A stretch of DNA of 64,000 bases. Origin: Bacteriovoracaceae bacterium. Its GTDB lineage: Bacteria > Bdellovibrionota > Bacteriovoracia > Bacteriovoracales > Bacteriovoracaceae. The notes under the pieces were generated by a model, which was given only the letters and a program-made list of their open reading frames with translations, was not told the origin of the DNA and did not search any database. The stretch is from NCBI GenBank assembly GCA_947377285.1, contig CANCFT010000014.1, positions 1 to 64,000 of the forward strand. The letters run 5' to 3'. The position numbers and the translations under genes are program-made. This document shows, in pieces, positions 29,330 through 45,120 of this stretch (position 1 is the stretch's first letter; each line of letters starts with the position of its first letter).

Positions 29330-30871
29330 TTAATTTGCCGCTTTAGAAGTATAATAAATTTCCACAGGAACTGAAGCTCCAGCTGTATTATTAAATTTTG
29401 CACTTCCATTAAGCCTAATAAAATAACCTGAAGATGCTCCATTAGGAAGATCAACAGTTTTTAGGTTTGAATCTAGAGTATTTGTAAATTGAAGTCCCAT
29501 ATAATCCCAACCATTCGTTGCATTTTGAGGAATTATTACTCCATTAATTTTAACTTCTATCGTTGGAACATATGGCTCACCATTTTTTAAATAAATATAA
29601 CCATATTGAAGTTTTTGAGCATCATAAGTAATAGTTAAACACCGAGGGTAAACAATGAGATCGTTATTGCTAGAGCCAAATAAACGGATCATTAAACCTG
29701 TATAGTTTTCTCCTTGAGTGGGAAGGGATCTCGTATAATGGTTAGTTTGATTTCCTACATAGGCGTAACCATCCCCCGGAGTAGACTCACCTGTTCTATT
29801 AACTAGGATTTTACCGTCATCACGGATGACTCTTAATGTACTTGGATCAATCGAAGTATTTGTTCCGGCCACTGGCCAATATTCATAAACGTGCTTTATT
29901 AATGTTTGTTTGATTGCAGAATTTACTCCATCGAAAATATGATTAAAATCGATAGAGCAAATATCATAACTATCCGGATAATTCACACCACCTGAAGAAA
30001 ATGGATTTAAATTATCATTTGAAGTTGGCCATCCATTTGTATAACTAGCTTCATAAATAGCTTTTGCAACTTTTCTGTAACGTGTATTAATTTTTCCTAA
30101 ACCAGATGAGCAACTTGTTAATGGAGCAATATTGATAAATCTCATCATGTTTGAATTAAGCGAAGTGGTGCCAGAACAATTAAGTCCACCGATATTACCT
30201 CTTAAGCAAAGTAGTTTATCAATTTTTGTTTGCAATCGTCCGGTCCAATCAAGTGTCGCACATGTTCCAAATCCAGTAGACATTTCACAACTTGTATCAT
30301 CGCCATTAGACATCACCACGATAATTGTATAGGCATCAGATCTAAAAATTCCATTATTTCTATTGGCCTCAATAATTGAAGTGGCGCGGTCAATTCCGGG
30401 TTCTGCGGATCCGGTAACTTGTGTGAAACCCAGCGCGGAAGCAGCTTGATCTTTTGATCTAATAATGGAAGTAGCATTTCCATTTACACTAGTTGAATCT
30501 TTCGCGACCAAAGAGGCTTCAAAAAGTGAATTAGATGAGTTCGTCGAAATAAGTGGTGCTGATAATATATGATAATCAAATTTTTCTGAAACGCTGGTTA
30601 TGAGTTGGTTGAAAGAATTTTTAGTAGAAGGATTTATAAAAAGTGCACTTGAGCTATTATCCCAGAGAAGTAAAACATCGACTTTCGGGCTTACAAGTGT
30701 GCTTTGTGAGCAAAGTAAGTTAGTGGTAGTAGTCAGTGGATTAATTGACGAATTTTGAGGAGCCTTGTTGGCCGCAAATTCCTCTTTCGAGCAAGACAGT
30801 AATGTGAAAGTCACGAGCAGGCTCGAAATTATAACGAGTGGGCTTCTCAAAGAGTTTGATTTCATTTTCAT
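29330..30871 (-). CDS. Lipoprotein with von Willebrand factor A-like domain
   Basis: About 513 residues. A signal peptide (SLLVTFTLLSC, lipobox LLSC) predicts a lipid-anchored envelope protein. After a Ser/Asn-rich linker comes a VWA-like segment: VDVLLLWDNSSS contains the MIDAS-type DxSxS, and YTIIVVMSNGDDTSC matches the later strand. Several cysteines downstream could pair. The C-terminal half is beta-rich (GEPYVPTIEVKINGV, YFIRLNGSAKFNNT) and ends YYTSKAAN. The start is unclear: ATG at 30871 or 30865 give the best signal peptide, while the frame runs to 30925. Single gene, with a 220-base gap to the divergent 31087 unit. Adhesion or prey-contact roles are guesses. Confidence 0.72.
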   Translation of the reverse strand: MKMKSNSLRSPLVIISSLLVTFTLLSCSKEEFAANKAPQNSSINPLTTTTNLLCSQSTLVSPKVDVLLLWDNSSSALFINPSTKNSFNQLITSVSEKFDYHILSAPLISTNSSNSLFEASLVAKDSTSVNGNATSIIRSKDQAASALGFTQVTGSAEPGIDRATSIIEANRNNGIFRSDAYTIIVVMSNGDDTSCEMSTGFGTCATLDWTGRLQTKIDKLLCLRGNIGGLNCSGTTSLNSNMMRFINIAPLTSCSSGLGKINTRYRKVAKAIYEASYTNGWPTSNDNLNPFSSGGVNYPDSYDICSIDFNHIFDGVNSAIKQTLIKHVYEYWPVAGTNTSIDPSTLRVIRDDGKILVNRTGESTPGDGYAYVGNQTNHYTRSLPTQGENYTGLMIRLFGSSNNDLIVYPRCLTITYDAQKLQYGYIYLKNGEPYVPTIEVKINGVIIPQNATNGWDYMGLQFTNTLDSNLKTVDLPNGASSGYFIRLNGSAKFNNTAGASVPVEIYYTSKAAN

Positions 30872-31086
30872 CTTAATTATCCATCTTAAAGATTTCTTTA
30901 TCCATATCCTTTGATTTATCGGCATTTCGATAGATTTCTTAAATAGGGGAGCGCATTCGTTTGTTTATTTTTCTTTAGTTGAGCGATTCTCTATAGATAG
31001 GGCAAATCTTGTGCCCCTATTTTTTGGTATTTCAACACGTTAAAATAGATATTAGATAAAAGTCTATTGTAAATTAGGAGTCATTA

Positions 31087-31929
31087 ATGATCAGCTGGTA
31101 TTACGTTCAAGGATCAGAGCGAGTAGGTCCGGTTAGTGAAGAGGCCTTAAAAGAATTATTTTTAAAAGAAGAAATTAATCTTGAATCATATGTTTGGCGT
31201 AAAGGGTTTCAGAACTGGGAACGTATAAAAGATGTGAATGAATTAAATATGGAAGCTCCAGTCGATTTACCTGTTTCAAATTTAGCAATCGTTGAACCCG
31301 TTGTCGAAAAAGATTTCGAAGTAGTGGCCGAGCCAATGGTACAAGTTGTGAAACAACCAAAGCCAAAATCAACAGTACAAGAAGAGTCACCTGAAATATT
31401 TTTAAATTTTAATTGGAATTCTCATAAAGAAAAAGAAGAATTATTTTTTATCAAAATAGGGCATGATCGAAAAATACATTCTAATTCAAAATATTTTGGA
31501 CCCTATTCAATTCAAGAACTTCGAGAAGCAATACTAGAAAATCGAATTAACAATCATAGCTTAATTTTTTCTCCAGGAATGCCTGGATGGATTGAAGTGG
31601 GTGAGACTCCACTTGATCCTAAAAATTTCTCCTTTAATATTGAAAATGTTTTAGAAGGGCCACCTCTGTTAGTTGTCTTAGGGTCTGAAGAATCACCAGT
31701 AATAGCACTTATGCAAGAGTCAGGTCTTGATCAATGTACACTCCGAGGGATTGGCCCTTTTAAGAAAGGTCATATTGCACATTGTTCAATTTATTCTGGT
31801 AAATCACTTAAAGCTAAAAACTTAAAAATTTCGATTGTTGAATATTATCCAAAAGAGCAAAAGGCAATATGTAATATTCTTGAAATTAGTGAAAGTGCAA
31901 AAAAAGTTATGCAATCTTATGGAAACTGA
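31087..31929 (+). CDS. Protein with two GYF_2-like domains
   Basis: A 280-residue protein. Residues 3-50 are a clear GYF_2 (DUF4339) domain: SWYYVQGSERVGPVSEEALKEL then SYVWRKGFQNWERI. A second, similar unit at about 125-180 reads FIKIGHDRKIH, YFGPYSIQELREAILENRI and GWIEVGE. The C-terminal 90 residues (LLVVLGSEESPV, CTLRGIGPFKKGHIAHCSI) have a PilZ-like pattern without the RxxxR motif. No signal peptide. AGGAG lies six bases before the ATG. It heads a four-gene run with a pseudo-hydrolase, lipoprotein and kinase; its end overlaps the next gene by 11 bases. GYF-type domains bind proline-rich peptides in eukaryotes; a scaffold role is inference. Confidence 0.75.
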   Translation: MISWYYVQGSERVGPVSEEALKELFLKEEINLESYVWRKGFQNWERIKDVNELNMEAPVDLPVSNLAIVEPVVEKDFEVVAEPMVQVVKQPKPKSTVQEESPEIFLNFNWNSHKEKEELFFIKIGHDRKIHSNSKYFGPYSIQELREAILENRINNHSLIFSPGMPGWIEVGETPLDPKNFSFNIENVLEGPPLLVVLGSEESPVIALMQESGLDQCTLRGIGPFKKGHIAHCSIYSGKSLKAKNLKISIVEYYPKEQKAICNILEISESAKKVMQSYGN

Positions 31930-32875
31930 AAATAAGATAAATGATTTAATGATTGAAAAATATAGTTGGCAAAATCTTGAAAACAAGATTTCAGTTACTC
32001 AGTATCCATCTACTGAATTAATAAATGGGATTAGTTCTGGTCAAATTTATATTAAAAAATATGAAGCACTAAAAAAAGATCCAGCTCGAAATATAACGAT
32101 CTTTCTTCTTCATGACCTGGGTCAATACCATGGCCGGTTTAATTATTTTATTAATTGGACGAGGCTTAAAATGCCAGGAATTTCATTCGTGGCCATAGAT
32201 TTTGTCGGTCATGGACTCAGCTCAGGAACGCGCGGTCATTTTGAACATTTCGACAGTTTAGTGACTGATGTCCTAGAATTAGTTACAGGAAAAATAAAAA
32301 ATAATACCCAAAATGAAAAATGGCTCCTTATGGGGCATGGGCTTGGGGGAATCGTCGCTCTTGATTTGTTGAATCGGTTCCAGTCAAAAATAAGTCATAA
32401 AATCGATGGCATTATACTTTCAAATTTTATTTTAAAATTTGAGTCAATATTTTTACAAATTGAAGAATCTGCACCATTTCGAAAATTAAAACTTACCAAT
32501 TTAATCTCTCATTCAAGGCCTCTTCGCTTGCAAAAAAGTGAAGATGTATTAATTTGTCCAAAAGAAATTTTACGGTACGAACAAGACCCATTAATTATTC
32601 ATCGGCCAACATTGAACGTTTTAAAAGAAATTCATTTGAAAATGGCTTCTGTTTATCAAGATTCCTATTTTCTAGATAAACCAATGATGCTACTGACTTC
32701 GTTGGGGACAGGGGATTTGCAAAAGAAAGGGATAGACTATTTTGCCAAAGGGATTAAAAAAGACCTATTACGTGAAAAGAAATATACACATAATAAGCAT
32801 GACTTGTATAATGATAGCGAGAGAGTAAATGTTTTTGAAGATATAATGGATTGGATTAAAATTTATGAAAATTAG
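31919..32875 (+). CDS. Alpha/beta-hydrolase-fold protein lacking the nucleophile serine
   Basis: A 318-residue protein of the monoacylglycerol-lipase / lysophospholipase type (Hydrolase_4): FLLHDLGQYHGRFNYF, AIDFVGHGLSSGTRGHFEHF with the typical G-x-RG pattern, and a late His in KHDLYND. The nucleophile elbow, normally GHSMGG or GHSLGG, reads LMGHGLGGIVAL: the serine codon is a glycine codon (GGG). The fold therefore looks intact but hydrolysis by the usual route is unlikely. The ATG at 31919 overlaps the upstream gene by 11 bases; a further 28 in-frame codons upstream lie within that gene and are not family-like. The next gene overlaps its end by 11 bases. Confidence 0.8.
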   Translation: METENKINDLMIEKYSWQNLENKISVTQYPSTELINGISSGQIYIKKYEALKKDPARNITIFLLHDLGQYHGRFNYFINWTRLKMPGISFVAIDFVGHGLSSGTRGHFEHFDSLVTDVLELVTGKIKNNTQNEKWLLMGHGLGGIVALDLLNRFQSKISHKIDGIILSNFILKFESIFLQIEESAPFRKLKLTNLISHSRPLRLQKSEDVLICPKEILRYEQDPLIIHRPTLNVLKEIHLKMASVYQDSYFLDKPMMLLTSLGTGDLQKKGIDYFAKGIKKDLLREKKYTHNKHDLYNDSERVNVFEDIMDWIKIYEN

Positions 32876-33395
32876 CAAAAATTTAGCTTTGATTATGATC
32901 CTCATGATTACTTTTTCATGTTCTTCAAATCTAAGTAAAAACTTAGTTCAAGATGGTAATCTCATTTTAAGAAATGGAACTTTTGCCGATAAATCTTGGA
33001 GAGAAGATTTAATATTTCAGAGAATATCTTGGTACCATGAATTAACGATGCAATTTGATTTGATGATGGCGCATATCACACCACAATCATCATTTAATTT
33101 TTGGTTTTCTAAAGTAGAACTTGACCGTATGACAGATTGTAACGATTCTCGAATTGTTATGGCCTATTCACTTGATACAAAAGATATTCCCTTTTCAAGT
33201 CTAAACGAGCAATTAGAAAAATCTGGATTTACGCGATTTGAACTACCTGAATTTAAAAAGAATCTTTTTCAACACCCTGATTCACAAATAAATGGCTTTC
33301 GTTTATACCATATTTTCGGTATTTGCAAAAAATCTAAAGACACAAATCCCAAGCTCTTGAATTTTCCGGGATACCTAGAAAAAGTCATTAACTAA
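32865..33395 (+). CDS. Predicted lipoprotein in kinase operon
   Basis: A 176-residue protein with an N-terminal signal peptide (MKISKNLALIMILMITFSCSS); Cys19 is a likely lipidation site although the residues before it (TFS) are a loose lipobox. The mature part has a conserved-looking pattern of charged and aromatic residues (SWREDLIFQRISWYHELTM) and two further Cys (MTDCND, IFGICKK). No family recognised. It overlaps the pseudo-hydrolase gene by 11 bases and lies 23 bases before the kinase gene, so the three should be made together. Confidence 0.68.
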   Translation: MKISKNLALIMILMITFSCSSNLSKNLVQDGNLILRNGTFADKSWREDLIFQRISWYHELTMQFDLMMAHITPQSSFNFWFSKVELDRMTDCNDSRIVMAYSLDTKDIPFSSLNEQLEKSGFTRFELPEFKKNLFQHPDSQINGFRLYHIFGICKKSKDTNPKLLNFPGYLEKVIN

Positions 33396-33418
33396 ACGAA
33401 TTATCCATTAAAGTTTTT

Positions 33419-35530
33419 ATGAATTTATTCCGACAAACTAGATCGGGAGCAAAAGAACTGATGAGTGTATTACAAAAACGCGAACGTTTCGGACGCTATT
33501 TGATCTTAGATCATTTGGTTGATGGTGGAATGGCAAAAATTTGTCGTGCTCGCTTCCTTGGTGGTGAGTCTGTCGATAAAGTTGTTGCAATTAAAATGGT
33601 CCAAGCACAACATTCAAAAGACGAAGCATTCAAAACAATGTTCATGGATGAGATTAAAGTTACTTTCGGTTTGCTTCATCCAAATGTCATTCAAACTTAC
33701 GATTATGGTCTCAACAAAGGTCAACTTTTCGTCGCCATGGAATATTGTGACGGAAGAAATTTAAAAGAATTTTTGGAAAAATTGAAAGAACGTAAATTTG
33801 TTTTTCCTGTTGAAATTTCAACTTATATTATTTCTCAAGCATGTCAGGGCCTTTACTATGCTCACACTTTTAGAGATAAGTTAACTGGTAAAGAAGCAAA
33901 TATAATTCACAGAGATATTTCTCCTCATAATATTATGCTTACCTATGATGGTGCCGTTAAGATTATTGATTTTGGTATTGCAAAATCTCAAACAAATAGT
34001 GAAGCTACACAGGCCGGAACAATCAAGGGGAAACTTTCTTACTTAGCTCCCGAATATCTTGAAGGATTAGAGCTTGATCCCCGTTATGATCAGTTTGCTC
34101 TTGGAATTACTTTATGGGAAATGCTATGTTCTCGTAAACTTTTTAAAGAGAATAATGACCTTGCCGTCTTAAAGAAAATTCAAGAATGTAAAGTCGTTGC
34201 TCCATCTTCTATTAATCCAAATGTTCCAAAAGAATTAGATGAAATTGTATTAAAAGCATTAAGTAAAGATCGCTCAAAACGTTTTGATAATTTAGATCAA
34301 ATGAACAGAGCTCTTATGAAATTTCTTTATGCAAAATTTCCAGATTTCAATTCAACAGATTTATCTTATTTTTCACAAGAGCTATTTCGAGATGAAATCA
34401 AAAAAGACCGTGAAAAAATGTATGAGTTTGGGAGAATTGATTTAAAACCCTATTTAGAAGATGTAAAAAAAGAACTTGAGAGTGGGACAAGAAAAGGTGA
34501 TATCGAAACAGCAATCGAAGTTGCAGTTGCGGTTGCTCAGGCGACTAGTAATAATCATCATGATTCACAAGAGCAAAAAGCCAAAGCAAAAGAACAAGTT
34601 CTAGATTTTGGTTTTGAAGCGACAAAAGCGAAAGGTCGTCCAACCCTTAGTACTAAAAAATCAGGACCGAGCCCTATTTCGACACCAATTGTCTCTAAAG
34701 ATAAAATGATGACATCACCGTCGACTACCATTTCATCAGAAGGTAATTCAACAGCACAAAGTCTAAAAAGTGGAGCAACTAAGCCTAATATTGAAAAGTC
34801 TGAAGGAACTAAAACACGGGCCAATATTGCTAGAAATCAATTAGAAGAACCAGAAAAGAAAAATTCCATGGGAATTATTGCAGCGGCTGCAGTCATTGTT
34901 GTCGTTGGAGTTTATTTTCTATATTCACAAAAAGTTAAAACGGAACCTGCCAAAGTCGTTGTCACACCTAAAGTAAATGTCGTTGAGAAAGTCCGTCAAC
35001 CGGCACAGATAAATACAATTAAAGATCTTGAAACACAAGTTGAACAAAGTCAGGGAAATATTGTTTTAGCTCATTATGATAAACAAAAAATGCAAGTTTT
35101 TATCAATGGAAAAAAAGCAGAAGTAGATCTTTTAACAAATGTAAAAGTACCATTGGCAGCTCCTTTTATTTTAAGAGTTCAAATTGAAGGAAGAAAACAT
35201 TTTATTAAAGAATTAAGAGTAGATAATTCTTCTGTAGTTGAAGTTGAAATTCCAGAAATGCCTTCAATTGCTTATGGATATATTAATACTGCCTCTGATT
35301 GTGCTCAAGGAGAATTAAGATTTGAGCTTTACGGTGAAAAGCGCTCAAGTCCTATACCGATGGTTGAGACATTTGGAGTTGGGTTACCGCTTGCTCTCGA
35401 TGGTAAGGGAACTTTAATTCCAGTCACCTACCAACTTTATTTTAAAAAGAAAGGTGATGATGTGGAAAGAAAAGTGGAAATTACGATTAGCCGCGAAGAC
35501 CAAACCATCGACTTATGCGAACATCTTTAA
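33419..35530 (+). CDS. Transmembrane serine/threonine protein kinase with PEGA-like tail
   Basis: A 703-residue kinase. The N-terminal kinase domain (about 26-300) has the ATP lysine Lys59 in VVAIKM, the catalytic loop HRDISPHNIM (His164-Arg-Asp166), DFG at Asp184 (IIDFGIAKS) and a following GTIKGKLSYLAPEYLEG, so it should be active; the glycine loop LVDGGMAKIC is reduced. A charged, Ser/Thr-rich linker (about 350-480) leads to one membrane helix (about 483-503), then a periplasmic beta-rich domain (QVFINGKKAEVDLL) similar to PEGA domains. Start is ATG 33419 or ATG 33461. Last gene of the GYF_2/pseudo-hydrolase/lipoprotein run. Confidence 0.92.
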   Translation: MNLFRQTRSGAKELMSVLQKRERFGRYLILDHLVDGGMAKICRARFLGGESVDKVVAIKMVQAQHSKDEAFKTMFMDEIKVTFGLLHPNVIQTYDYGLNKGQLFVAMEYCDGRNLKEFLEKLKERKFVFPVEISTYIISQACQGLYYAHTFRDKLTGKEANIIHRDISPHNIMLTYDGAVKIIDFGIAKSQTNSEATQAGTIKGKLSYLAPEYLEGLELDPRYDQFALGITLWEMLCSRKLFKENNDLAVLKKIQECKVVAPSSINPNVPKELDEIVLKALSKDRSKRFDNLDQMNRALMKFLYAKFPDFNSTDLSYFSQELFRDEIKKDREKMYEFGRIDLKPYLEDVKKELESGTRKGDIETAIEVAVAVAQATSNNHHDSQEQKAKAKEQVLDFGFEATKAKGRPTLSTKKSGPSPISTPIVSKDKMMTSPSTTISSEGNSTAQSLKSGATKPNIEKSEGTKTRANIARNQLEEPEKKNSMGIIAAAAVIVVVGVYFLYSQKVKTEPAKVVVTPKVNVVEKVRQPAQINTIKDLETQVEQSQGNIVLAHYDKQKMQVFINGKKAEVDLLTNVKVPLAAPFILRVQIEGRKHFIKELRVDNSSVVEVEIPEMPSIAYGYINTASDCAQGELRFELYGEKRSSPIPMVETFGVGLPLALDGKGTLIPVTYQLYFKKKGDDVERKVEITISREDQTIDLCEHL

Positions 35531-35543
35531 ACTTGTCTAAAAC

Positions 35544-36800
35544 TTAGCGAAAAGTGTAATAAATCATTGGGATGTTTAGCATAAACATCAAAAATACCAA
35601 AATATAACTGATAAAATTTTGAGTTGGAGAATTTGTATATTGCCCCATGATATCAGGGTCATTACAAAGTTTGATAATAAATAAAATGACGATTGGTATG
35701 AGTAGGCCATCTATTACTTGAGAATAATAAAGAATATTGAAAAGATTGATATTTGGAATTAAAGTGATCGCGCCACCAATGACAATCATCGAAGTAAAAA
35801 TTGAAAAGAAGTGAGGAGCTTCTTTAAAAGAGCGGTCAACTCCAGATTCCCAACCCATACCTTCACAAATATAATAGCTAGCAGCGAGTGGTAAAATAGC
35901 TGCGGCAAAAAAAGAGGCATTAAAAAGACCAATACCAAAAAGCATTGAAGCATATTTTCCGGCCAAAGGCTCAAGTGCTACGGCCGCATCTTTTGCATCA
36001 CTAATACTAATTCCTGCTTTATGAATCGTAGCCGCACAACAAATAATAATAAACATTGAAATAAAAAGAGTAAGTGTACAACCAGCGATAACATCTACTT
36101 TCGAATGCCATAGATGTTTAGTTGAAATACCTTTTTCGACAACTGCTGATTGAATATAAAATTGCATCCAGGGAGTTATCGACGTTCCTAATAGGGCCAC
36201 CATGATAGGTAAGTCTTTAGTCGTAATTGAATGAAAGTCTGGTTTGATAATTGCGGTTGTTACTTCCATCCAGTCAGCTCCAACTAATAATCCTGAAACG
36301 ATATAAGTTAAAAAGACTGAGCAGCCAATAATAAAAATTCTCTCCACACCTTTGTAGTCACTTTTTAATACAATAAACCAAACTGCAAATGCACAGATTG
36401 GCACAGTGAAAAATCGGGAAGCACCAAAAATTTCTCCCGCTGAAGCAATTCCGGCGAACTCGGCCATAGTATTTCCAAGATCGGCAAATAAAAGAAAGAA
36501 GAGTGAGTAAAAGGTTATTTTTAAACCAAATTTTTCGCGAATTAAATCTGCTAAGCCTTTTCCAGAAACAATTCCCATGCGAGCAGACATTTCTTGAAAC
36601 ATAATGAGTGCAATCGTTACTGGAATAAGAATCCACATTAAGCGGTAACCAGTTTGAGCCCCGGCCAGAGAGTAAGTGGCAATACCACCAGCATCATTAT
36701 CAAGATTGGCCGTCACAAGGCCTGGGCCTATAATACTTAAGAGTAATGTCAGTTTAATCATTAATGGAGAAATTATTTTTTTCTTTGATTCAATTTTCAT
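35544..36800 (-). CDS. NRAMP-related divalent cation transporter, predicted Mg2+ type
   Basis: A 418-residue membrane protein with about 11 helices of the NRAMP/SLC11 fold. The metal-site motifs differ from Mn/Fe transporters: in helix 1 the DPGN motif is replaced by LDNDAGGIATYS (Asp34-Asn-Asp36), and in helix 6 the MPH motif is replaced by SITPWMQFY (Thr209-Pro-Trp211). Such changes are typical of NRAMP-related magnesium transporters (NRMT), which lost the methionine that selects transition metals. Its ATG overlaps by four bases the end of a gene for a soluble MgtE-like Mg2+ sensor, which supports Mg2+ transport. Substrate is inferred. Confidence 0.85.
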   Translation of the reverse strand: MKIESKKKIISPLMIKLTLLLSIIGPGLVTANLDNDAGGIATYSLAGAQTGYRLMWILIPVTIALIMFQEMSARMGIVSGKGLADLIREKFGLKITFYSLFFLLFADLGNTMAEFAGIASAGEIFGASRFFTVPICAFAVWFIVLKSDYKGVERIFIIGCSVFLTYIVSGLLVGADWMEVTTAIIKPDFHSITTKDLPIMVALLGTSITPWMQFYIQSAVVEKGISTKHLWHSKVDVIAGCTLTLFISMFIIICCAATIHKAGISISDAKDAAVALEPLAGKYASMLFGIGLFNASFFAAAILPLAASYYICEGMGWESGVDRSFKEAPHFFSIFTSMIVIGGAITLIPNINLFNILYYSQVIDGLLIPIVILFIIKLCNDPDIMGQYTNSPTQNFISYILVFLMFMLNIPMIYYTFR

Positions 36801-38128
36801 GAAAGCAACCTGTCTAGAATATCGTCTACAGAAACCATTCCAAGAAGTTCATTGTCTGCAGCAATAATTGGTACAGTCACCATGCTGTATTTGTTCATAA
36901 AGTCTGCGACTTGTTTCCAGTGTGTATCGGCAGGAAGGCATTTAATATCAGAATCATTCATCATTTCACTAACTAATAAATCTTCTTTATGAATTAATAG
37001 TTCTTGAACTGAGAGAGTACCAACTAAAAAGTGGTTTTCATCGACGACATAAATATCAAAAAATGAAGCAACTTCATCATGATTTTTTTGAATGAGTGCT
37101 AGTACTTCAGATTTTTTTAAATTGGCCGTTACTTCAAAAATTTCGGAAGTCATTAAGCCACCTGCCGAATCTTCATCATAATCAAGAAGCTCTTGGATTT
37201 CTTCCTGAGTTTCAAGATCGTCGATATTTGAAATAATTTCTTCTGCAACATCATCATCAAGTTCATTTAATAAATCGGCCGCATCGTCTGTATCCATATT
37301 CTCGATGATTTCGGCCGCTTTTTCAGGCAATTCATTTCCTAATAAAGAAGCTTGTAAATCTTCGTCAACTTCAGAGAGGGTTTCAGCTGCTAATTTAGGA
37401 TCGAGGTTAGAGAAAATCATTTCTCTACCATGACTATCTAAGTCTTCTAAAATATCCGCCAAATCAGCGGGGTGAAGCTCTTTTAAGTCTTCATTAGTTA
37501 AATTGAGTCTTACACTTTTTTGAATATTGCGATTAGGAATAGCGTGAACATATTTCCAATTAATGGTTGTATCGTTGCTTAAATATTTTGAATTTGGATT
37601 GATGAGTTTTATGACTAAATCAATTGGGCGCTCTAAGCTAAGTCGTCTGACGAAACTTCGTACACCTACTTCAGCATGAGTGACTCTAAGTTCATTTCCT
37701 GTACGGATAAATTGAATATCATTAACTCGAACAACTTTTTTCCCATGCGTATCGACGATTTGTTTGTCTAAAACAATTTGCCCTAACGGAGGGTATTCAA
37801 CTGTTGAACCCGTAAATTGATTCGCAAGAATACTTGTGACTGTTTTAGGGTTAAGTGTTTTAGGAAATGTCCGACTTCTGCGTGGAAATGCTTCTTTCTT
37901 GATGATTATCTTTTTATAGGAAAAACTGATAATTTCTTCCCACAAGATATAAAAGAGAACGCCACTTCGCTTATATTGAATGGCAAGAACAGAGGGATAA
38001 ATTTCTTCATAATCAATAAAGTAGTCAATCAAGCTACCAAGCTTTTGGCCGTCTTCATTATAAATATTAATCCCAACAGTAGCGGAAAAATGAAGAGTAA
38101 TATCTGATAATTCTTTAAAAATTTCCAT
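36797..38128 (-). CDS. Soluble MgtE-like protein: PRC-barrel, MgtE N domain and CBS pair, no channel
   Basis: A 443-residue cytoplasmic protein. The first about 170 residues are beta-rich with PRC-barrel character (GQKLGSLIDYFIDYEEIYPS, then GKKVVRVNDIQFI). Residues about 205-300 form an MgtE N domain, with LHPADLADILEDLDS and MDTDDAADLLNELDD repeats; a CBS pair follows (LMTSEIFEV, VGTLSVQELLIH, VSEMMND, LLGMVSVDDILDRLLS). The transmembrane domain of MgtE is absent: the protein stops where it would begin. In MgtE the N and CBS domains bind Mg2+ and close the pore. The next gene, overlapping by four bases, encodes the NRAMP-related transporter, the likely partner. Confidence 0.88.
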   Translation of the reverse strand: MEIFKELSDITLHFSATVGINIYNEDGQKLGSLIDYFIDYEEIYPSVLAIQYKRSGVLFYILWEEIISFSYKKIIIKKEAFPRRSRTFPKTLNPKTVTSILANQFTGSTVEYPPLGQIVLDKQIVDTHGKKVVRVNDIQFIRTGNELRVTHAEVGVRSFVRRLSLERPIDLVIKLINPNSKYLSNDTTINWKYVHAIPNRNIQKSVRLNLTNEDLKELHPADLADILEDLDSHGREMIFSNLDPKLAAETLSEVDEDLQASLLGNELPEKAAEIIENMDTDDAADLLNELDDDVAEEIISNIDDLETQEEIQELLDYDEDSAGGLMTSEIFEVTANLKKSEVLALIQKNHDEVASFFDIYVVDENHFLVGTLSVQELLIHKEDLLVSEMMNDSDIKCLPADTHWKQVADFMNKYSMVTVPIIAADNELLGMVSVDDILDRLLS

Positions 38129-38133
38129 ATTAG

Positions 38134-38994
38134 TTAAGTCGATTCGTTTTTTGTTTGCTTAAAAATATTATTTTTACGCATGTTCAAAAGTTTTAATATA
38201 TCAGCGGCCGTTTCTTCTAGAGCTTTATCAGTTACATTAAATACAGGCCAGCGCTTATTCTCTTTAAAAATATTATTGGCCCATTCAATTTCTTCGACAA
38301 TTTTATCGTGTTCGGCATATTCTCCTTGATGCTTGTCAGCACCTAAGCGTTGCAAGCGATTTTTTCTAATTTCACTCAAGGAGTCCGGGTCAATGGTGAG
38401 AGCAAAGATCTTTCTTTGATCCACTTCAAGTAATTCTGTTGGTAGTGGCTGATCTTTGATCATCGGAATATTAACGACTTTTATTCCATGTTGAGAAAGA
38501 TAAACAGAAAGAGGTGTTTTTGATGTTCTAGAAACACCCACTAAAATAACATCTGCAAGGTGAAGTGAAGCTAAATTTCTTCCGTCATCGTGGTTAAGTG
38601 TAAATTCCATGGCCTCAACCCGCTTATAATATTCATCATTCACTGCGCGTAATAATCCAGGTTCAGACATTGGTTCTTGGTTGAAATAATTTGAAAACGC
38701 TGTGAGAGCAGGTCCAATTAAGTCTAAAGTTCTTACATGCTTATTTCGTGAAAGTTCAGCAATATATTCGCGAAGTTTGCCAGAAACAATTGTATGTATG
38801 ACTAAATCGTGATGAATGGCCGCTTCATTAAAAATGGCATCTATTTGTTCAATTGTTCGAATATTTTTATAACGAGTAAAATAGACTTCACGGTCTTTAA
38901 ATTGGGCCATTACTGCTCGAGAAATAGCAGTTGCTGTTTCTCCAGTACCATCTGAGATAACAATAATTTTTAAGCGTTGAGTTTCTAATACCAT
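38134..38994 (-). CDS. PEP synthase / PPDK regulatory kinase-pyrophosphorylase (DUF299)
   Basis: Bifunctional regulatory protein that phosphorylates (with ADP) and dephosphorylates a threonine of PEP synthase or pyruvate phosphate dikinase. 286 residues: VISDGTGETATAISRAVMAQF at the N-terminus, the P-loop-like GVSRTSKTPLSVYL and IPMIKDQPLPTELLEV, all typical. The ATG at 38994 has AGAGG four bases upstream; the frame runs seven codons further. The target enzyme gene (ppsA or ppdK) is not in the window. It lies between miaA and the MgtE-like gene in the long minus-strand run. Confidence 0.92.
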   Translation of the reverse strand: MVLETQRLKIIVISDGTGETATAISRAVMAQFKDREVYFTRYKNIRTIEQIDAIFNEAAIHHDLVIHTIVSGKLREYIAELSRNKHVRTLDLIGPALTAFSNYFNQEPMSEPGLLRAVNDEYYKRVEAMEFTLNHDDGRNLASLHLADVILVGVSRTSKTPLSVYLSQHGIKVVNIPMIKDQPLPTELLEVDQRKIFALTIDPDSLSEIRKNRLQRLGADKHQGEYAEHDKIVEEIEWANNIFKENKRWPVFNVTDKALEETAADILKLLNMRKNNIFKQTKNEST

Positions 38995-39045
38995 GAGACC
39001 TCTAAAGCAATGCATGACTGATTCTTAAGTTAATTTATTTTAGCA

Positions 39046-39999
39046 CTAACTTAGAAATAGCTCTACACTGTGGAATATTTTCTCTTGATCTAAAAGTGGA
39101 TTGAAGCAAAGTTTTGGAGTCATTTTTTTAAAAAAGGTTCTCTGGGATTTGGCGAGTTGTCTGGTTGATATTGCAATTCGCTCCACACACTCTTTTTGAC
39201 TTGGAAATAATCCATTTTTCCATTCAAGTGCTTCTTTATACCCGATGGAATTAAATGGTCTTTCAGTAGTACTAAAGCCAAGTTTTTCTAATTGCTCAAT
39301 TTCATCCATCAATCCTTCATTAAACATTTTTTCTGCACGATTTTTGATAATTTCGAAATGCTGATCTTTTGGGAGGTCTAAATAAATATGTAAAAGATCC
39401 CATGGATGGATGACCTTGCTGAAATCGTAAGGGGATAGTTCGTCATGTACAATTTTTTGAGAAGAAAATTTTGTACCTGTCATTTCAAAATGAAGAGCGG
39501 CCCGAGTTAACCTGTAGTGGTCATTTATATGTAAATTGTTAAGGGATTCTGGGTCGTGGATTTTTAAGTAAGAAATAATAGTATCAATATTTTGATTTTC
39601 AAATTTTTCTTTAATTTCTGGAGTTGGAGTTATTGTTTGATACATTCCTTTTAAAAGGGCCCTTAAGTAAAAGGCACTTCCACCGACTAAAATCACTAAA
39701 TTTCCAAGCGCCAATTGCTCCTTGATTATAGCTTCTCCAATTTTAATAAAGTCAGCAGCATTCATAGGAGACCTGATTGATTCGATATCTATCATGAAAT
39801 GCAAAATGTCCGCTCGTTCTGCGAGTGTCGGCTTTGCTGTACCGATAGAGACTTCTTTATAAAAAAGGAGGGAATCAAAATTAACAATAACTGCAGGAAT
39901 ATTGAAATTCTTTTGAATTTTTTGAGCAATCTCAATACTTGTCTGGGTTTTCCCAGATGCTGTTGGACCAGTGATTAAAATAACTTTATTCATTGTCAT
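39046..39999 (-). CDS. miaA: tRNA dimethylallyltransferase
   Basis: Adds a dimethylallyl group to A37 of tRNAs reading U-starting codons. 317 residues; the P-loop ITGPTASGKTQTSIEIA, VNFDSLLFYKEVSIGTAKP (with the conserved Asp-Ser and GTAKP), DIES, and LVGGSAFYLRALLKGM are visible, and the C-terminal part has RPFNSIGYKEAL and STRQLAKSQRTFF. The start ATG at 39999 overlaps the mutL stop by four bases (a second ATG two codons on is possible). mutL-miaA is a common order. Confidence 0.95.
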   Translation of the reverse strand: MTMNKVILITGPTASGKTQTSIEIAQKIQKNFNIPAVIVNFDSLLFYKEVSIGTAKPTLAERADILHFMIDIESIRSPMNAADFIKIGEAIIKEQLALGNLVILVGGSAFYLRALLKGMYQTITPTPEIKEKFENQNIDTIISYLKIHDPESLNNLHINDHYRLTRAALHFEMTGTKFSSQKIVHDELSPYDFSKVIHPWDLLHIYLDLPKDQHFEIIKNRAEKMFNEGLMDEIEQLEKLGFSTTERPFNSIGYKEALEWKNGLFPSQKECVERIAISTRQLAKSQRTFFKKMTPKLCFNPLLDQEKIFHSVELFLS

Positions 40000-41732
40000 G
40001 ATTTTGAACTCTTAAAAAGATTTTTAAGATTATCAACTTGTAACAAGACAAAGGCACAATCTTGCAAATCACTATTTTCAATAATTGGAATCAAAATATG
40101 CAATGGCAGTGTCGTTTGAACTGGCCAGTTCTTTTCAATAAAATAGTGGAGAGTGAGTGGTTCAAATATGGTCGTTTTAGCTTGAAGAAAATACTCAATA
40201 AGGCAATTGGTTATTTCTAGTGAAATATTTTGTGGAACAAAGCGAGGTAATGTTCTGAGAGCTACAACTTCGCTATTTAGCCTATCAAATTCAAAGCCTA
40301 AAGTTTTTAAATCTTCAAAGTGCGAATCAATTTTGCCACTTGGAATTTTAAATGGCTCACTAATCAACAAGGGGCCAGAAAGTTCATCCGACTTTATAAA
40401 ATTATCAATCGAGTTACAGATATATGTCGCCATTAATTTTTTGATGTCGGCAATGTAGAAATTGTTTTCAAGTTTAAAAAGAATAATCGAAGGTGAAATA
40501 TAACCTTGGATGAAATTAGAAGTTTCTGCAGGAGATTGAATAATTTGATTTTGTTCAAAACGCTGATGAGGTGAGTATGAATTAGAATTTGAATATGTAT
40601 TCATATTCATTAAATCTAATGTTTGATTTTCTTCTCTTGTAAAAAAAGGCTCTTGGATGTGAGAACCCGCAAGGCCAGAAGTCGACGGAGAATTTGAGTG
40701 TCCAAGGGACTTCAATGCGCCTCTAAGTGAAGTTACCAAGAGGGAGTAGATGATGTCCGATTTCAAAAATTTAATTTGCGTTTTATTTGGATGAACATTC
40801 ACGTCTATTTCTTCGGGCGGAACAGTAATTTTCACTAAATAATGACCACTTTCTCCTAAACGCCAGATAGGATCTAACGTTCTTAGGATAGAGAGGTGCA
40901 GTGATTTATCTTGAAAAAAACGATTATTAGCAAAAAGATAATGATGGCGATATTGTGGAGATGTATGTGTTTCAAGCGTAAAATAAACTTCAACTTTATA
41001 ATCGCCATAAGATTCAGCAGACATCAAAATTTGTGATTCTAAATTTTTTTGAGCTTTCGGTGAGAAAACTTGTTTAACCCGAATGATGTTTTGATCTGGT
41101 GGTACATTTTTAAAAATTTCTCGTTCTTTTTCATCCCACTTAATTGAAAATAAAGTTTGAGGATTTGAGAGTACAAATGCATACAACATTTTTTTTAGCG
41201 CTGATTTCTCACTTACCTTAGATTTGATAAATTTTAGTCGAGCGGGAGTGTTGTAAAAAAGATCTTTAATATAAAGAGAAGTTCCGTGAGTTGATGATCC
41301 GTAGGGAATTAAAAGATCTTGAGCGCCACCATTAATAATAATTTTTCCACCTGACTCCTCTAAGTTAATTGGCTGAGTTGTACAGGTGAGGCGGGCCGAA
41401 GCGGCCACACTCGCTAAAGCCTCGCCTCTAAATCCAAAACTATAAAGATGATAGAGGTCTTCATAATTTTTTAATTTAGAAGTTGCATGTCTTAAAAAAG
41501 CATAGGGGAGGTTTTCAAAACTCATTCCATGGCCATTGTCTTCGATGCTTAATAACTCAAGACCATTTTCTACCAAGTGAATATTAATTTCAGTTGCTTT
41601 GGCATCAAGTGAATTTTCAATTAATTCTTTTATTAAAGAAGCGGGACGCTCTAAAACTTCACCAGCTTTAATTTGGTCAATAATATGTTCTGGAAGAATA
41701 TCGATTTTGGGTGTTGAATATTGTTTATCCAT
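39996..41732 (-). CDS. mutL: DNA mismatch repair protein MutL
   Basis: Links mismatch recognition by MutS to strand removal. The 578-residue protein has the GHKL ATPase motifs KELIENSLDAKA, IEDNGHGM and YSFGFRGEALASVAA and the NHPNKTQIKF-type HPNKTQIKF block. The linker is Ser/Asn-rich. The C-terminal domain lacks the DQHAxxExxxxE endonuclease motif: the expected place reads FYIADIKKLMATYICNSI. It is thus of the non-nicking type as in E. coli. It starts with a one-base TAATG overlap with the FHA-GGDEF gene and overlaps miaA by four bases. Confidence 0.94.
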   Translation of the reverse strand: MDKQYSTPKIDILPEHIIDQIKAGEVLERPASLIKELIENSLDAKATEINIHLVENGLELLSIEDNGHGMSFENLPYAFLRHATSKLKNYEDLYHLYSFGFRGEALASVAASARLTCTTQPINLEESGGKIIINGGAQDLLIPYGSSTHGTSLYIKDLFYNTPARLKFIKSKVSEKSALKKMLYAFVLSNPQTLFSIKWDEKEREIFKNVPPDQNIIRVKQVFSPKAQKNLESQILMSAESYGDYKVEVYFTLETHTSPQYRHHYLFANNRFFQDKSLHLSILRTLDPIWRLGESGHYLVKITVPPEEIDVNVHPNKTQIKFLKSDIIYSLLVTSLRGALKSLGHSNSPSTSGLAGSHIQEPFFTREENQTLDLMNMNTYSNSNSYSPHQRFEQNQIIQSPAETSNFIQGYISPSIILFKLENNFYIADIKKLMATYICNSIDNFIKSDELSGPLLISEPFKIPSGKIDSHFEDLKTLGFEFDRLNSEVVALRTLPRFVPQNISLEITNCLIEYFLQAKTTIFEPLTLHYFIEKNWPVQTTLPLHILIPIIENSDLQDCAFVLLQVDNLKNLFKSSKS

Positions 41733-42640
41733 TATCCCCTATAGAAGTGCACTTGATTCCTACCGCCTTCCTTTGCTTTGTACACGGCTTCGTCAGCTCT
41801 TTTAAAAAGATCTGTTCCCGTGATTACACCTTGGCGATAATCTGCAACTCCAATAGAAACTGTAACGGGAAGTCTTTTCCCGTCGTATAGAAATTCTTTA
41901 TTTTCGATGAGTTTTCTTAATCGTTCGGCAATTTCAAAAGATTGTTTCAAGTTTGTTTTCGGAAGTAAAATAACAAACTCTTCTCCGCCGTATCGAGCGA
42001 AAACATCTTGCTCTCTAATTCCATTGGCGCGAATAATAGCGGCCATATCTTTTAAAACATAATCACCAGCATCGTGTCCGTATCCATCATTGAGTTTTTT
42101 AAAGTGGTCTAAGTCAAAAATAACGAGTGAAAGGGGTTCACCTACAACTTTGCACTTATTAACTTCAAGAGCGATTCGGTTGTTAAAATATGTTTTGTTA
42201 TAACAGCCTGTGTGTTTGTCAGTATTGGCTTCGAGGTTGAGTTTGTCATAAGTGAGGCGTTCGGGATCTCCCTTAGGAAGATACTTAAGAGCAATACTCC
42301 CAATTTTTATGATGTCACCTTTAGCAAGTGGAGTGAGGCTTTCAATTTTTTTATTATTAAGGTAAGTCCCGTTTTTTGATCCACAGTCTTCTAGGACATG
42401 GGTTTCTCCACTTGCTAAAAGTTTAAAGTGATAACGAGAAACTCCATTAAACTCTAATGAAATAATATTATCTGCATTTCGACCAATTCCGACCATTGGT
42501 TCAATAAGATCAAAAAGAGTTCCATTGAGATCCCCGCCTACAACTAAAAGCGCAGCTGGTTTTAATTGAGCTTCAATTTCTGAAGCTTGCAGTGCTGCTC
42601 TCAAATCGGTTAATACGATGGTTGTATCGTCATTGCTCAT
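41732..42640 (-). CDS. FHA-GGDEF diguanylate cyclase (DgcB-like)
   Basis: Makes cyclic di-GMP. The 302-residue soluble protein has a Thr-bearing tail (SNDDTTIVLTDL), an FHA phosphothreonine-binding domain (about 30-110: VGIGRNADNIIS, SRYHFKLL, GSKNGTYLNNKKI) and a GGDEF domain (about 135-300) with the active-site RYGGEEFVILLP near residue 218. The inhibitory site RxxD (REQD) lies exactly five residues before GGEEF, so product inhibition is likely. This layout matches DgcB (Bd0742) of Bdellovibrio bacteriovorus, needed for prey entry; orthology is inferred. The gene precedes mutL with a one-base overlap. Confidence 0.9.
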   Translation of the reverse strand: MSNDDTTIVLTDLRAALQASEIEAQLKPAALLVVGGDLNGTLFDLIEPMVGIGRNADNIISLEFNGVSRYHFKLLASGETHVLEDCGSKNGTYLNNKKIESLTPLAKGDIIKIGSIALKYLPKGDPERLTYDKLNLEANTDKHTGCYNKTYFNNRIALEVNKCKVVGEPLSLVIFDLDHFKKLNDGYGHDAGDYVLKDMAAIIRANGIREQDVFARYGGEEFVILLPKTNLKQSFEIAERLRKLIENKEFLYDGKRLPVTVSIGVADYRQGVITGTDLFKRADEAVYKAKEGGRNQVHFYRG

Positions 42641-42697
42641 TTTCTGGGATTCCTTTTGATTGATTCTTTAAGCTCTCATTTTAGCGAATAGTTGAAA

Positions 42698-43954
42698 TTA
42701 TTTCAACTGGTTCAAAAAATGAAAAGCATAAATCTTTCCAGCTTCAACACCTGGTTGATCAAAAGGATCAATCATTAGGTAATCTCCCATCAATGCAGTG
42801 AGAGATTCAAAGAAGAGTATGAGTGAACCAAGATGGAATTCATCATTTTTTTCAATTTTAAGATGAATGGTGGGTCTATTGTTTTCCTGCAAGGCCTTAA
42901 TTGTTCCAACAAGCTCCGCTTTCATCAATTGAGACAAGCTAAAACTTGAGAGCTTTCTTAGGTTTATTCCTGGAAGATCGGTTGCTAGTTTAAAATCTTG
43001 TGCAAAATTTTCCACCTCAATTAGGATAAGGCATTTATCAAGAGGGCCTTCCATAAATAATTGCATTTGAGAATGCTGATCAGTCGCTCCAAATCCTACG
43101 ATAGGTGTAAAGCCAGTATTAATTGTTTCACCTAATCGATTTTTCTTTTTACCTAAACTTTCCGCCCAAAGTTGAGTGAACCAAAATGAAAAAGCTCGCA
43201 ATTTAGAAGAATAGGGCATTAAGACGGTTTGACTAATGTTTTGATTTTTTTTCAAAGAAAAAAGGAATTCAGCAACATTTAAGAGTGGGTTTGCTAATGA
43301 ATTTTCGAGGCAAATTTTTTGAGTTTCTAGCGCACCTAGAACTAATTGATCAATATTAATTCCAGCGAAAAGTGCCGGTAAAAACCCCACCGGAGTGAGA
43401 GCGCAAAACCGACCTCCAACATTGCTTGGAACTTCTAAGCAATGCACTTTTAAAACTTTTGCCAAATCCAGTAATTCACTTTTTTTAGGATCTGTTGCGA
43501 ATATAAAATATTGATGAAGATCAGATTCTTTTACATTTCTCGTGTATAAATATTGAGTCACAATTGAAAGAGCAGCTAAAGTTTCAGCAGTACCTCCAGA
43601 TTTTGAAACAAAATAGAAAAGGCATTCAGATAACTGATAATCATTTAAAACTTCTAATTGGTCGTGAATCTCGTCTGGGTCTATATTGTTAATATAAAGA
43701 AAACGAGTTTTATTTTTTTGGAGTGCACTTACTATCATCTCTGGACCTAGGCTTGAGCCGCCAATTCCAATATGAATAAAAACTTTTCGGTCATTAAATT
43801 GAGAATATATTTTTTTTGAAGTTGTAATATAGTCGGGATTTTCGAAAGTATGAAAAAATTGTGCATTCGGATTAGTAATAATTTCTTTAAATATTTCTAA
43901 TTTTTTTAAATCAATATTTTGAGGTTGTTTAGAAAATTGGAATTTAAGACTCAT
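42698..43954 (-). CDS. pgi: Glucose-6-phosphate isomerase
   Basis: Interconverts glucose-6-P and fructose-6-P. 418 residues from the ATG at 43954, which has GAGGAAAA upstream (a second ATG at 43969 has none). Sugar-phosphate-binding motifs HIGIGGSSLGPEMIV and FYFVSKSGGTAETLAAL are clear, as is the catalytic-region IDPFDQPGVEAGK near the end with the Lys. It is shorter than the E. coli enzyme (about 550) and fits the compact bacterial type. It follows an acyl-CoA dehydrogenase gene by 17 bases in the long minus-strand run. Confidence 0.93.
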   Translation of the reverse strand: MSLKFQFSKQPQNIDLKKLEIFKEIITNPNAQFFHTFENPDYITTSKKIYSQFNDRKVFIHIGIGGSSLGPEMIVSALQKNKTRFLYINNIDPDEIHDQLEVLNDYQLSECLFYFVSKSGGTAETLAALSIVTQYLYTRNVKESDLHQYFIFATDPKKSELLDLAKVLKVHCLEVPSNVGGRFCALTPVGFLPALFAGINIDQLVLGALETQKICLENSLANPLLNVAEFLFSLKKNQNISQTVLMPYSSKLRAFSFWFTQLWAESLGKKKNRLGETINTGFTPIVGFGATDQHSQMQLFMEGPLDKCLILIEVENFAQDFKLATDLPGINLRKLSSFSLSQLMKAELVGTIKALQENNRPTIHLKIEKNDEFHLGSLILFFESLTALMGDYLMIDPFDQPGVEAGKIYAFHFLNQLK

Positions 43955-43971
43955 TATTTTTCCTCGCAATT

Positions 43972-45120
43972 TTAATGTTTGCTGTACTCTTTTTTTAACA
44001 AGCGAGCAATGACTACTCTTTGAATTTGATTTGTCCCTTCGACTATTTGAAGAACTTTTGCATCTCTCATGAATCGCTCAACTGGATATTCTTTGGTGTA
44101 ACCAACTCCCCCTAAAATTTGGACAGCATCAGTTGTTACTCTCATTGCTGTATCTGTTGCTTTCAATTTAGCCATACAAGCTAATTTGGCGTTGGGAGTG
44201 CCCGAATCGTAATCCTTTGCTGCCTGTAAAACAAGTAGTCTTGAGCATTCTATTTCAAGGGCCATATCGGCCATCATAAATTGGAGGCCTTGAAAATCAA
44301 AAATAGGTTGTTTAAACTGTTGTCGACTTAAGGCATAACGAACAGATTCATCTAGAGCACGCTCAGCACAGCCAACAGCTATTGCGCCGATGGTAAAACG
44401 GCCTTTATCCAATGCCGCCATGGCAATTTTAAATCCATCGCCCTCATTGGCAAGTAGGTTTTCGGCAGGAATAAAGCAATTATGGAAGAGAAGTTCGCGT
44501 GTAGGAGAGACTCGCCATCCCATTTTTTTCTCTTTTTTACCGAAACTAAAACCTGGGGTGCCATCTCTGACAATAAAAGCAGAAACTCCACTGCTCCCAG
44601 CTGCTCCGGTTCTCGCCATCACGATATAAGTTTTAGCTATTCCGCCAGAAGTAATCCATATTTTAGAACCATTTAAGAGATATCCCTCAGTCCCATCTTG
44701 TGTTGTTTTTTTGGCAGATGTAATTAAAGAGGCAGCATCTGAGCCTGCGCCTGATTCACTTAGGCAAAAGGCCCCAATTTCTATTCCGCTGGATAATGCA
44801 GGTAAATATTGTTTTTTCTGAACAACACTTCCAAATTCATTGAGTATAGCTTGAACCATGCTCGAAACAGAAATGGTCACTGCATAAGACACAGAATATT
44901 TAGCTATTTCACAAAGTGCTATTGAGAAATCTTGATAAGATAAACCCACTCCACCAAATTCTTCTGGCAAAGTCATTCCTGTAAAACCAAGTTCGCCTAA
45001 TTCATTAAAAATATCCATACGAAAAGTTTCAGTTTCATCATCATGTTCCATATGAGGTTCAATTTTTTGAAGACAAAATTTTTGTAATTGATTTTTTAAT
45101 TCTAATTGTATTTCATTCAT
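43972..45120 (-). CDS. Acyl-CoA dehydrogenase
   Basis: FAD-dependent acyl-CoA dehydrogenase, 382 residues. Motifs: GAFCLSESGAGSDAASL, NGSKIWITSGGIAKTYIVM, LDKGRFTIGAIAVGCAERALDE, RQQFKQPIFDFQGLQFMMADMA and at the end RDAKVLQIVEGTNQIQR with the Glu in VEGTNQ. Substrate range cannot be read from sequence. It lies ten bases after a second acyl-CoA dehydrogenase gene and 17 bases before pgi. Confidence 0.92.
   Translation of the reverse strand: MNEIQLELKNQLQKFCLQKIEPHMEHDDETETFRMDIFNELGELGFTGMTLPEEFGGVGLSYQDFSIALCEIAKYSVSYAVTISVSSMVQAILNEFGSVVQKKQYLPALSSGIEIGAFCLSESGAGSDAASLITSAKKTTQDGTEGYLLNGSKIWITSGGIAKTYIVMARTGAAGSSGVSAFIVRDGTPGFSFGKKEKKMGWRVSPTRELLFHNCFIPAENLLANEGDGFKIAMAALDKGRFTIGAIAVGCAERALDESVRYALSRQQFKQPIFDFQGLQFMMADMALEIECSRLLVLQAAKDYDSGTPNAKLACMAKLKATDTAMRVTTDAVQILGGVGYTKEYPVERFMRDAKVLQIVEGTNQIQRVVIARLLKKEYSKH

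Follow-up and report, generated by a model that had tools for sequence, protein, structure and literature searches.

What does the sensing half of an MgtE magnesium channel do when it is encoded without a channel, next to a transporter of an unrelated fold? The question is raised by two adjoining genes in the first 64,000 nucleotides of contig CANCFT010000014.1 (assembly GCA_947377285.1; this whole stretch is hereafter called the window) of a Bacteriovoracaceae bacterium related to Bacteriovorax. As a preliminary description of the window had reported, two minus-strand open reading frames lie there and share positions 36797–36800: a stand-alone sensor gene of 443 codons (36797–38128) and, following it, a gene for a 418-amino-acid NRAMP-fold transporter of the NRAMP-related Mg2+ transporter (NRMT) type (35544–36800). 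The reading that we prefer, with moderate confidence, is that the transporter is a likely Mg2+ importer and that the sensor, a channel-less MgtE N/CBS protein, would bind cytoplasmic Mg2+ and close the importer in trans. The pairing of such genes and the idea of feedback were published in 2014: Shin et al. (PMC4072509) named NrmT and, in the parts of that report drawn on here, noted that the gene beside most members encodes a homologue of MgtE's N-terminal domain, proposing feedback regulation or chaperone activity as the sensor's role. A later test of an NrmT-linked sensor gene was not found in the open-licence literature, a survey to which subscription papers did not belong. New here are the scale of the linkage and its two arrangements, an account of which Mg2+ sites the sensor retains or has lost, the absence of the plug helix and of the ATP-binding Phe, the tandem PRC barrels held in common with MgtE channels, and a neighbouring NRMT clade in which no sensor is seen.

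The transporter, an NRAMP-fold protein of full length, scores 309.1 bits with Pfam Nramp (cut-off 29.8). Its closest solved relative is EleNRMT of Eggerthella lenta (7qia), which it matches with 348.1 bits over residues 16–409, whereas the next-best solved chains, all of the MntH type, reach at most 81 bits; against the NCBIfam MntH model it scores 135.3 bits, below the cut-off of 430. The NRMT ion-site signature, given as DxxG-TxxA/T in the portion of Ramanadane et al. 2022 (PMC8806188) used here, is present as D36xxG39 within the helix-1 motif DNDAGG (residues 34–39, 36684–36701, minus strand like every feature located below) and as T206xxT209 within the helix-6 motif TSITPW (residues 206–211, 36168–36185), and the classical NRAMP/MntH marks, DxxN in helix 1 and A/CxxM in helix 6, are lacking. 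The altered DNDAGG and TPW motifs singled out in the preliminary description are thus present, and its assignment of the protein to the NRMTs agrees with both signature and scores. EleNRMT has the same signature and, like the window protein, a Trp at the position of the first helix-6 His; it differs in having TxxA rather than TxxT in helix 6 and an Asn where the window protein has Ile216. W211 and I216 occupy the positions of the MntH histidines in helix 6b, and replacement of these histidines is equated with loss of proton coupling in NRMTs in the same portion of PMC8806188, whose text contains MgtE five times and the words "CBS", "operon" and "genomic" zero times. By homology, then, the window transporter belongs to the NRMT branch of the NRAMPs and is likely to import Mg2+.

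The sensor protein contains an MgtE N domain (Pfam MgtE_N, 89.3 bits, cut-off 25.9; residues 218–320, 37169–37477) followed by two CBS stretches (residues ~321–442, 36803–37168; the protein ends at residue 443). The MgtE channel domain (PF01769) is absent from it by Pfam and no membrane segment was found by a simple hydropathy scan, so that the description of MgtE N and CBS domains without a channel is correct. The single N-terminal PRC-barrel that had also been described needs amendment. The Pfam PRC match at residues 19–67 is below threshold (18.4 bits, cut-off 21.2), and because structure prediction gives two PRC-like barrels, at about residues 11–76 (37901–38098) and 123–196 (37541–37762), the N-terminus is probably a tandem of barrels rather than one. 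The second barrel, with its conserved LDKQIVD...RVND motif, is among the most conserved parts of the sensor, and D121, Q123, D126, R134, N136, D137 and R161 are invariant in 93 sequences. In a fold comparison the alignment rows barely covered the PRC region, and absence of PRC there is uninformative. A composite query of sensor plus NRMT returned 42 proteins, 17 of which carry PRC, MgtE_N, CBS and the MgtE channel in one chain; MgtE therefore uses the same module in cis. These 17 (P0015, P0018, P0019, P0021–P0026 and P0028–P0035) are MgtE channels of ~595–675 amino acids with the PRC region N-terminal to MgtE_N. They have the PRC-N-CBS module and the second-barrel motif in common with the sensor and differ from it in that the module is fused to the MgtE channel and not encoded by a separate gene beside an NRMT. 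The motif occurs in 20 of the 21 proteins P0015–P0035, the sole miss (P0027) being an NRAMP.

To compare the sensor with MgtE itself, 74 non-redundant sensors were aligned with the cytosolic sequence of Thermus thermophilus MgtE (2yvy/2zy9), the site residues being those given in the parts of PMC5882242 and PMC5529423 relied on here. Three sites are kept in the window sensor: Mg4 (MgtE D91/D247, here D281/D436), Mg6 (D95, here D285) and Mg7 (E59, here E249). Among the 74 sensors, the D95 position is Asp in all, E59 is acidic in 89%, D91 is Asp in 60 and D247 is Asp in 56. In MgtE, Mg4, Mg6 and Mg7 connect the N domain either with the CBS domain or with the beginning of the plug helix, and the plug helix is that channel's own link to its pore. 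The sensor therefore resembles the MgtE cytosolic domain in its N domain, CBS pair and Mg4/Mg6/Mg7 residues, and differs from it in lacking the plug helix and the channel, in its ATP and Mg5 positions (see below) and in its two extra PRC-like barrels. ATP contacts are partly changed: Asn203 is kept (N391), Asp188 is E376, Tyr170 is D358 and Arg187 is Q375.

The sensor is rarely found apart from an NRMT gene, as the preliminary description had led one to look for. With the sensor as query 48 loci were found, and in 44 of them an NRMT gene follows immediately downstream on the same strand, so that the pairing is not due to chance; of the remaining four, contig ends truncate L009 and L049, the genome of L015 carries its NRMT at a different locus, and L048 apparently resembles a full-length MgtE. 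Because that search had started from the sensor, another was run from the NRMT alone, and this found NRMTs in 29 of 290 genomes of the window's phylum (E <= 1e-70), 51 of 247 in the phylum to which G040 belongs (the genome with locus L020, recorded as Syntrophaceae) and 26 of 299, with 27 genes, in that of G037 (the genome with locus L012, recorded as Bacillota; E <= 1e-60). A sensor adjoins the NRMT in 99 of the 107 genes of these three phyla, and does so in two arrangements. In 91 it lies upstream on the same strand (29 in the window's phylum, 35 in that of G040 and 27 in that of G037), and in eight, all from the phylum of G040, it is downstream and convergent at ~0.1–0.8 kb. Helix 1 reads DNDAGG or GNDAGG in 99 of the 107 NRMTs and DNDASG, DNDPGG or DDDATG in six, two being truncated and unreadable there. 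No sensor was present within ~1.5 kb on either side of eight distant NRAMPs of relatives (L091–L098; DDDPSG or MntH type). We note that in two convergent loci, L101 and L130, sensor and NRMT are ~0.8 kb apart, with a 229-amino-acid open reading frame between them in L101; that a second NRAMP (DDDPSG / GTTISPY type) adjoins the pair in the Chloroflexi loci L025, L030, L036 and L046; and that an Eisenbacteria genome has a weak NRAMP match (24% identity) inside a 737-amino-acid open frame (G042:C46:58331-59530).

Five NRMTs with no sensor seen alongside (L115, L125, L194, L201 and L205, the last two with only the upstream side visible) form one clade with support of 100 in a quick IQ-TREE phylogeny of 122 sequences, and this clade is sister (support 97) to the window's Bacteriovoracaceae clade. 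Three changes among the states upstream, convergent and none are needed on that tree. They have PWQQF in helix 6 in place of PWMQF, a pattern that would fit sensor loss along with a change in transport, though it counts as one event only. Six NRMT positions (T42, F91, T96, A116, M212 and G365) are at least 85% conserved in 111 sensor-linked NRMTs and absent from these five. They were considered as a docking face and rejected, as the changes are mild, several lie near the ion path and no face is outlined; since the five are all from one clade, the difference may possibly be mere kinship.

A link of the pair to Mg2+ is supported by its gene neighbourhood in several phyla, by riboswitches in Bacillota and by the kept MgtE site residues. 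In 13 of 16 Bacillota loci Rfam placed an M-box Mg2+ riboswitch immediately before the sensor gene and on its strand; an M-box stands ahead of some of the NrmT-linked MgtE-like fragments of Shin et al. (PMC4072509), a group for which it is not a required feature. The host genome, 92.75% complete, has no MntH that could be found, no CorA (0 matches) and no MgtE channel. In 37 relatives an NRMT is present in 11, each time with an adjacent sensor (11/11), and MgtE channels occur in five of these 11 and in 24 of the 26 others (Fisher p 0.004, not corrected for kinship); CorA, in 18 relatives, occurs in none of six NRMT-bearing and eight of 12 other genomes.

Gating of the NRMT by the sensor in trans is in our view the best explanation of these observations; we infer it from them, and as a mechanism it is plausible and has been published as a suggestion. 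At high cytoplasmic Mg2+ the sensor would adopt the compact Mg2+-bound form known from MgtE and, acting from the cytoplasm, keep the importer from transporting; at low Mg2+ it would open and the importer would run. The sensor lacks the plug helix by which MgtE reaches its pore, and would have to pass on its output through another surface: the N domain, the CBS pair or the PRC barrels. The 4 bp shared by the sensor stop and NRMT start (ATGA, 36797–36800) suggest translational coupling, which may keep both proteins in step.

Fusions of the two proteins, which had been proposed as something to look for, were sought as well, and none is counted as proven. NRAMP and MgtE_N occur together in three proteins of the composite search (P0005, P0009 and P0014), each of which runs into frameshift-like sequence, and L016 has sensor and NRMT in one frame of 851 amino acids with a 2-nt gap at the sensor end relative to L045 and L026, and so may reflect a frameshift or faulty assembly. 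For a tethered model of the L140 pair, a first alignment (A1, 127 rows) was set aside unused, most of its NRMT rows having aligned to the sensor half; the model from a second (A2, 58 rows) has a mean predicted local distance difference test score (pLDDT) of 80.7 and a predicted template modelling score (pTM) of 0.66.

Several points weigh against a Mg2+ importer braked by this sensor. The tethered model does not establish a sensor-NRMT interface. Of the two-gene Mg2+ unit originally put forward, the domain reading and the NRMT membership are right and the Mg2+ link is supported; binding and gating of the transporter by the sensor would be a prediction. In the parts of PMC4072509 used here, the sensor was dispensable for transport, the transporter of the Acidobacterium capsulatum pair acted mainly on Mn2+, the pair rescuing uptake of this ion and not of Mg2+, and adding the sensor by co-expression brought no gain. 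Eight of the 107 NRMTs show no sensor alongside, four of them visible for at least 2.8 kb on both sides and the other four truncated on one side where the contig ends. The sensor stops near MgtE residue 254, so that the rest of the plug helix (246–263) is missing and with it the sites Mg2 (E258) and Mg3 (D259); Mg5 (D226/D250) is half lost (S415/D439); and Phe227, which MgtE requires for ATP binding, is M416 in the window sensor (Leu in 55 and Phe in nine of the 74). Among loci from other groups, 15 were scanned and showed no M-box, five entries of the first list having been too large to include, and positions 30000–44000 of the window gave no Rfam match at E <= 1. Finally, the host genome has a single NRAMP gene and also encodes a CNNM protein and an MgtA-type ATPase that scores 638.8 bits against a cut-off of 610.75; the NRMT therefore need not be the host's Mg2+ importer, and the idea that it is the sole one is rejected.

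Some of these points would suit a pair that handles Mn2+, or Mn2+ and Mg2+, with the NRMT as the cell's manganese importer and the sensor answering Mn2+ or total divalent cation: the one NRAMP in a genome with no MntH found and with a Mg2+ ATPase of the MgtA type, the A. capsulatum rescue (PMC4072509, in the parts cited) and the lack of a Mg2+ riboswitch at the window. We nevertheless consider this unlikely, as the helix-6 Met and helix-1 Asn of transition-metal NRAMPs are missing from the window NRMT, EleNRMT is its closest solved relative and most Bacillota pairs stand behind Mg2+ riboswitches. Still less probable is a role without gating, in which the sensor would buffer Mg2+ in solution, serve as a chaperone, or help to assemble or localise the NRMT through its PRC barrels. 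Chaperone activity is the alternative named in those parts of PMC4072509, and the strong conservation of the second barrel would accord with such a role; that barrel's motif is also carried by the MgtE channels with the module, however, and so is not tied to NRMTs, and the kept Mg4, Mg6 and Mg7 residues favour Mg2+-driven domain closure over bulk buffering. That the sensor acts on some other target (gene expression or another transporter), and neighbours the NRMT merely through a common Mg2+ regulon, is very improbable: L015 does have its NRMT elsewhere and the eight convergent loci, up to ~0.8 kb apart, are not one operon, but adjacency is nearly constant across phyla with little else conserved, the window genes overlap translationally, and the sensor adjoins none of the eight other-type NRAMPs.

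Among the nearest described systems, the NrmT and MgtE-like fragment pairs of Clostridium acetobutylicum (Ca_c0685) and A. capsulatum, as far as the parts of Shin et al. 2014 (PMC4072509) drawn on here describe them, match the window in partners, neighbourhood and suggested feedback role. The window differs in that no M-box was found, the sensor gene is single and unsplit, and the two genes overlap by 4 bp; PRC barrels are present in its sensor, and those parts of the report do not mention them for the fragments. In the window the pair closes a tight minus-strand run (35544–41732) that comprises mutL, miaA, a pyruvate-phosphate-dikinase-regulator gene (38134–39015), the sensor and the NRMT. 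A 4-bp overlap also joins mutL and miaA, and in L002–L008 mutL, miaA and the regulator likewise precede the sensor.

We propose tentatively, with rather more doubt than belief, that the sensing half of MgtE is a portable brake built on tandem PRC barrels, which without plug helix, ATP site or channel would act in trans on an unrelated LeuT-fold carrier through the Mg4/Mg6/Mg7 N-CBS clamp alone; the same module would serve MgtE in cis, and the window's sister clade would have shed the sensor while changing residues of the ion path. The finding touches the question of how NRMTs, which apparently lack proton coupling, keep Mg2+ from building up to excess in the cell. Should the detached sensor of MgtE gate them, a single sensor domain would govern transporters of two unrelated folds, and the sister clade in which no sensor is seen would be the natural comparison to that of the window.
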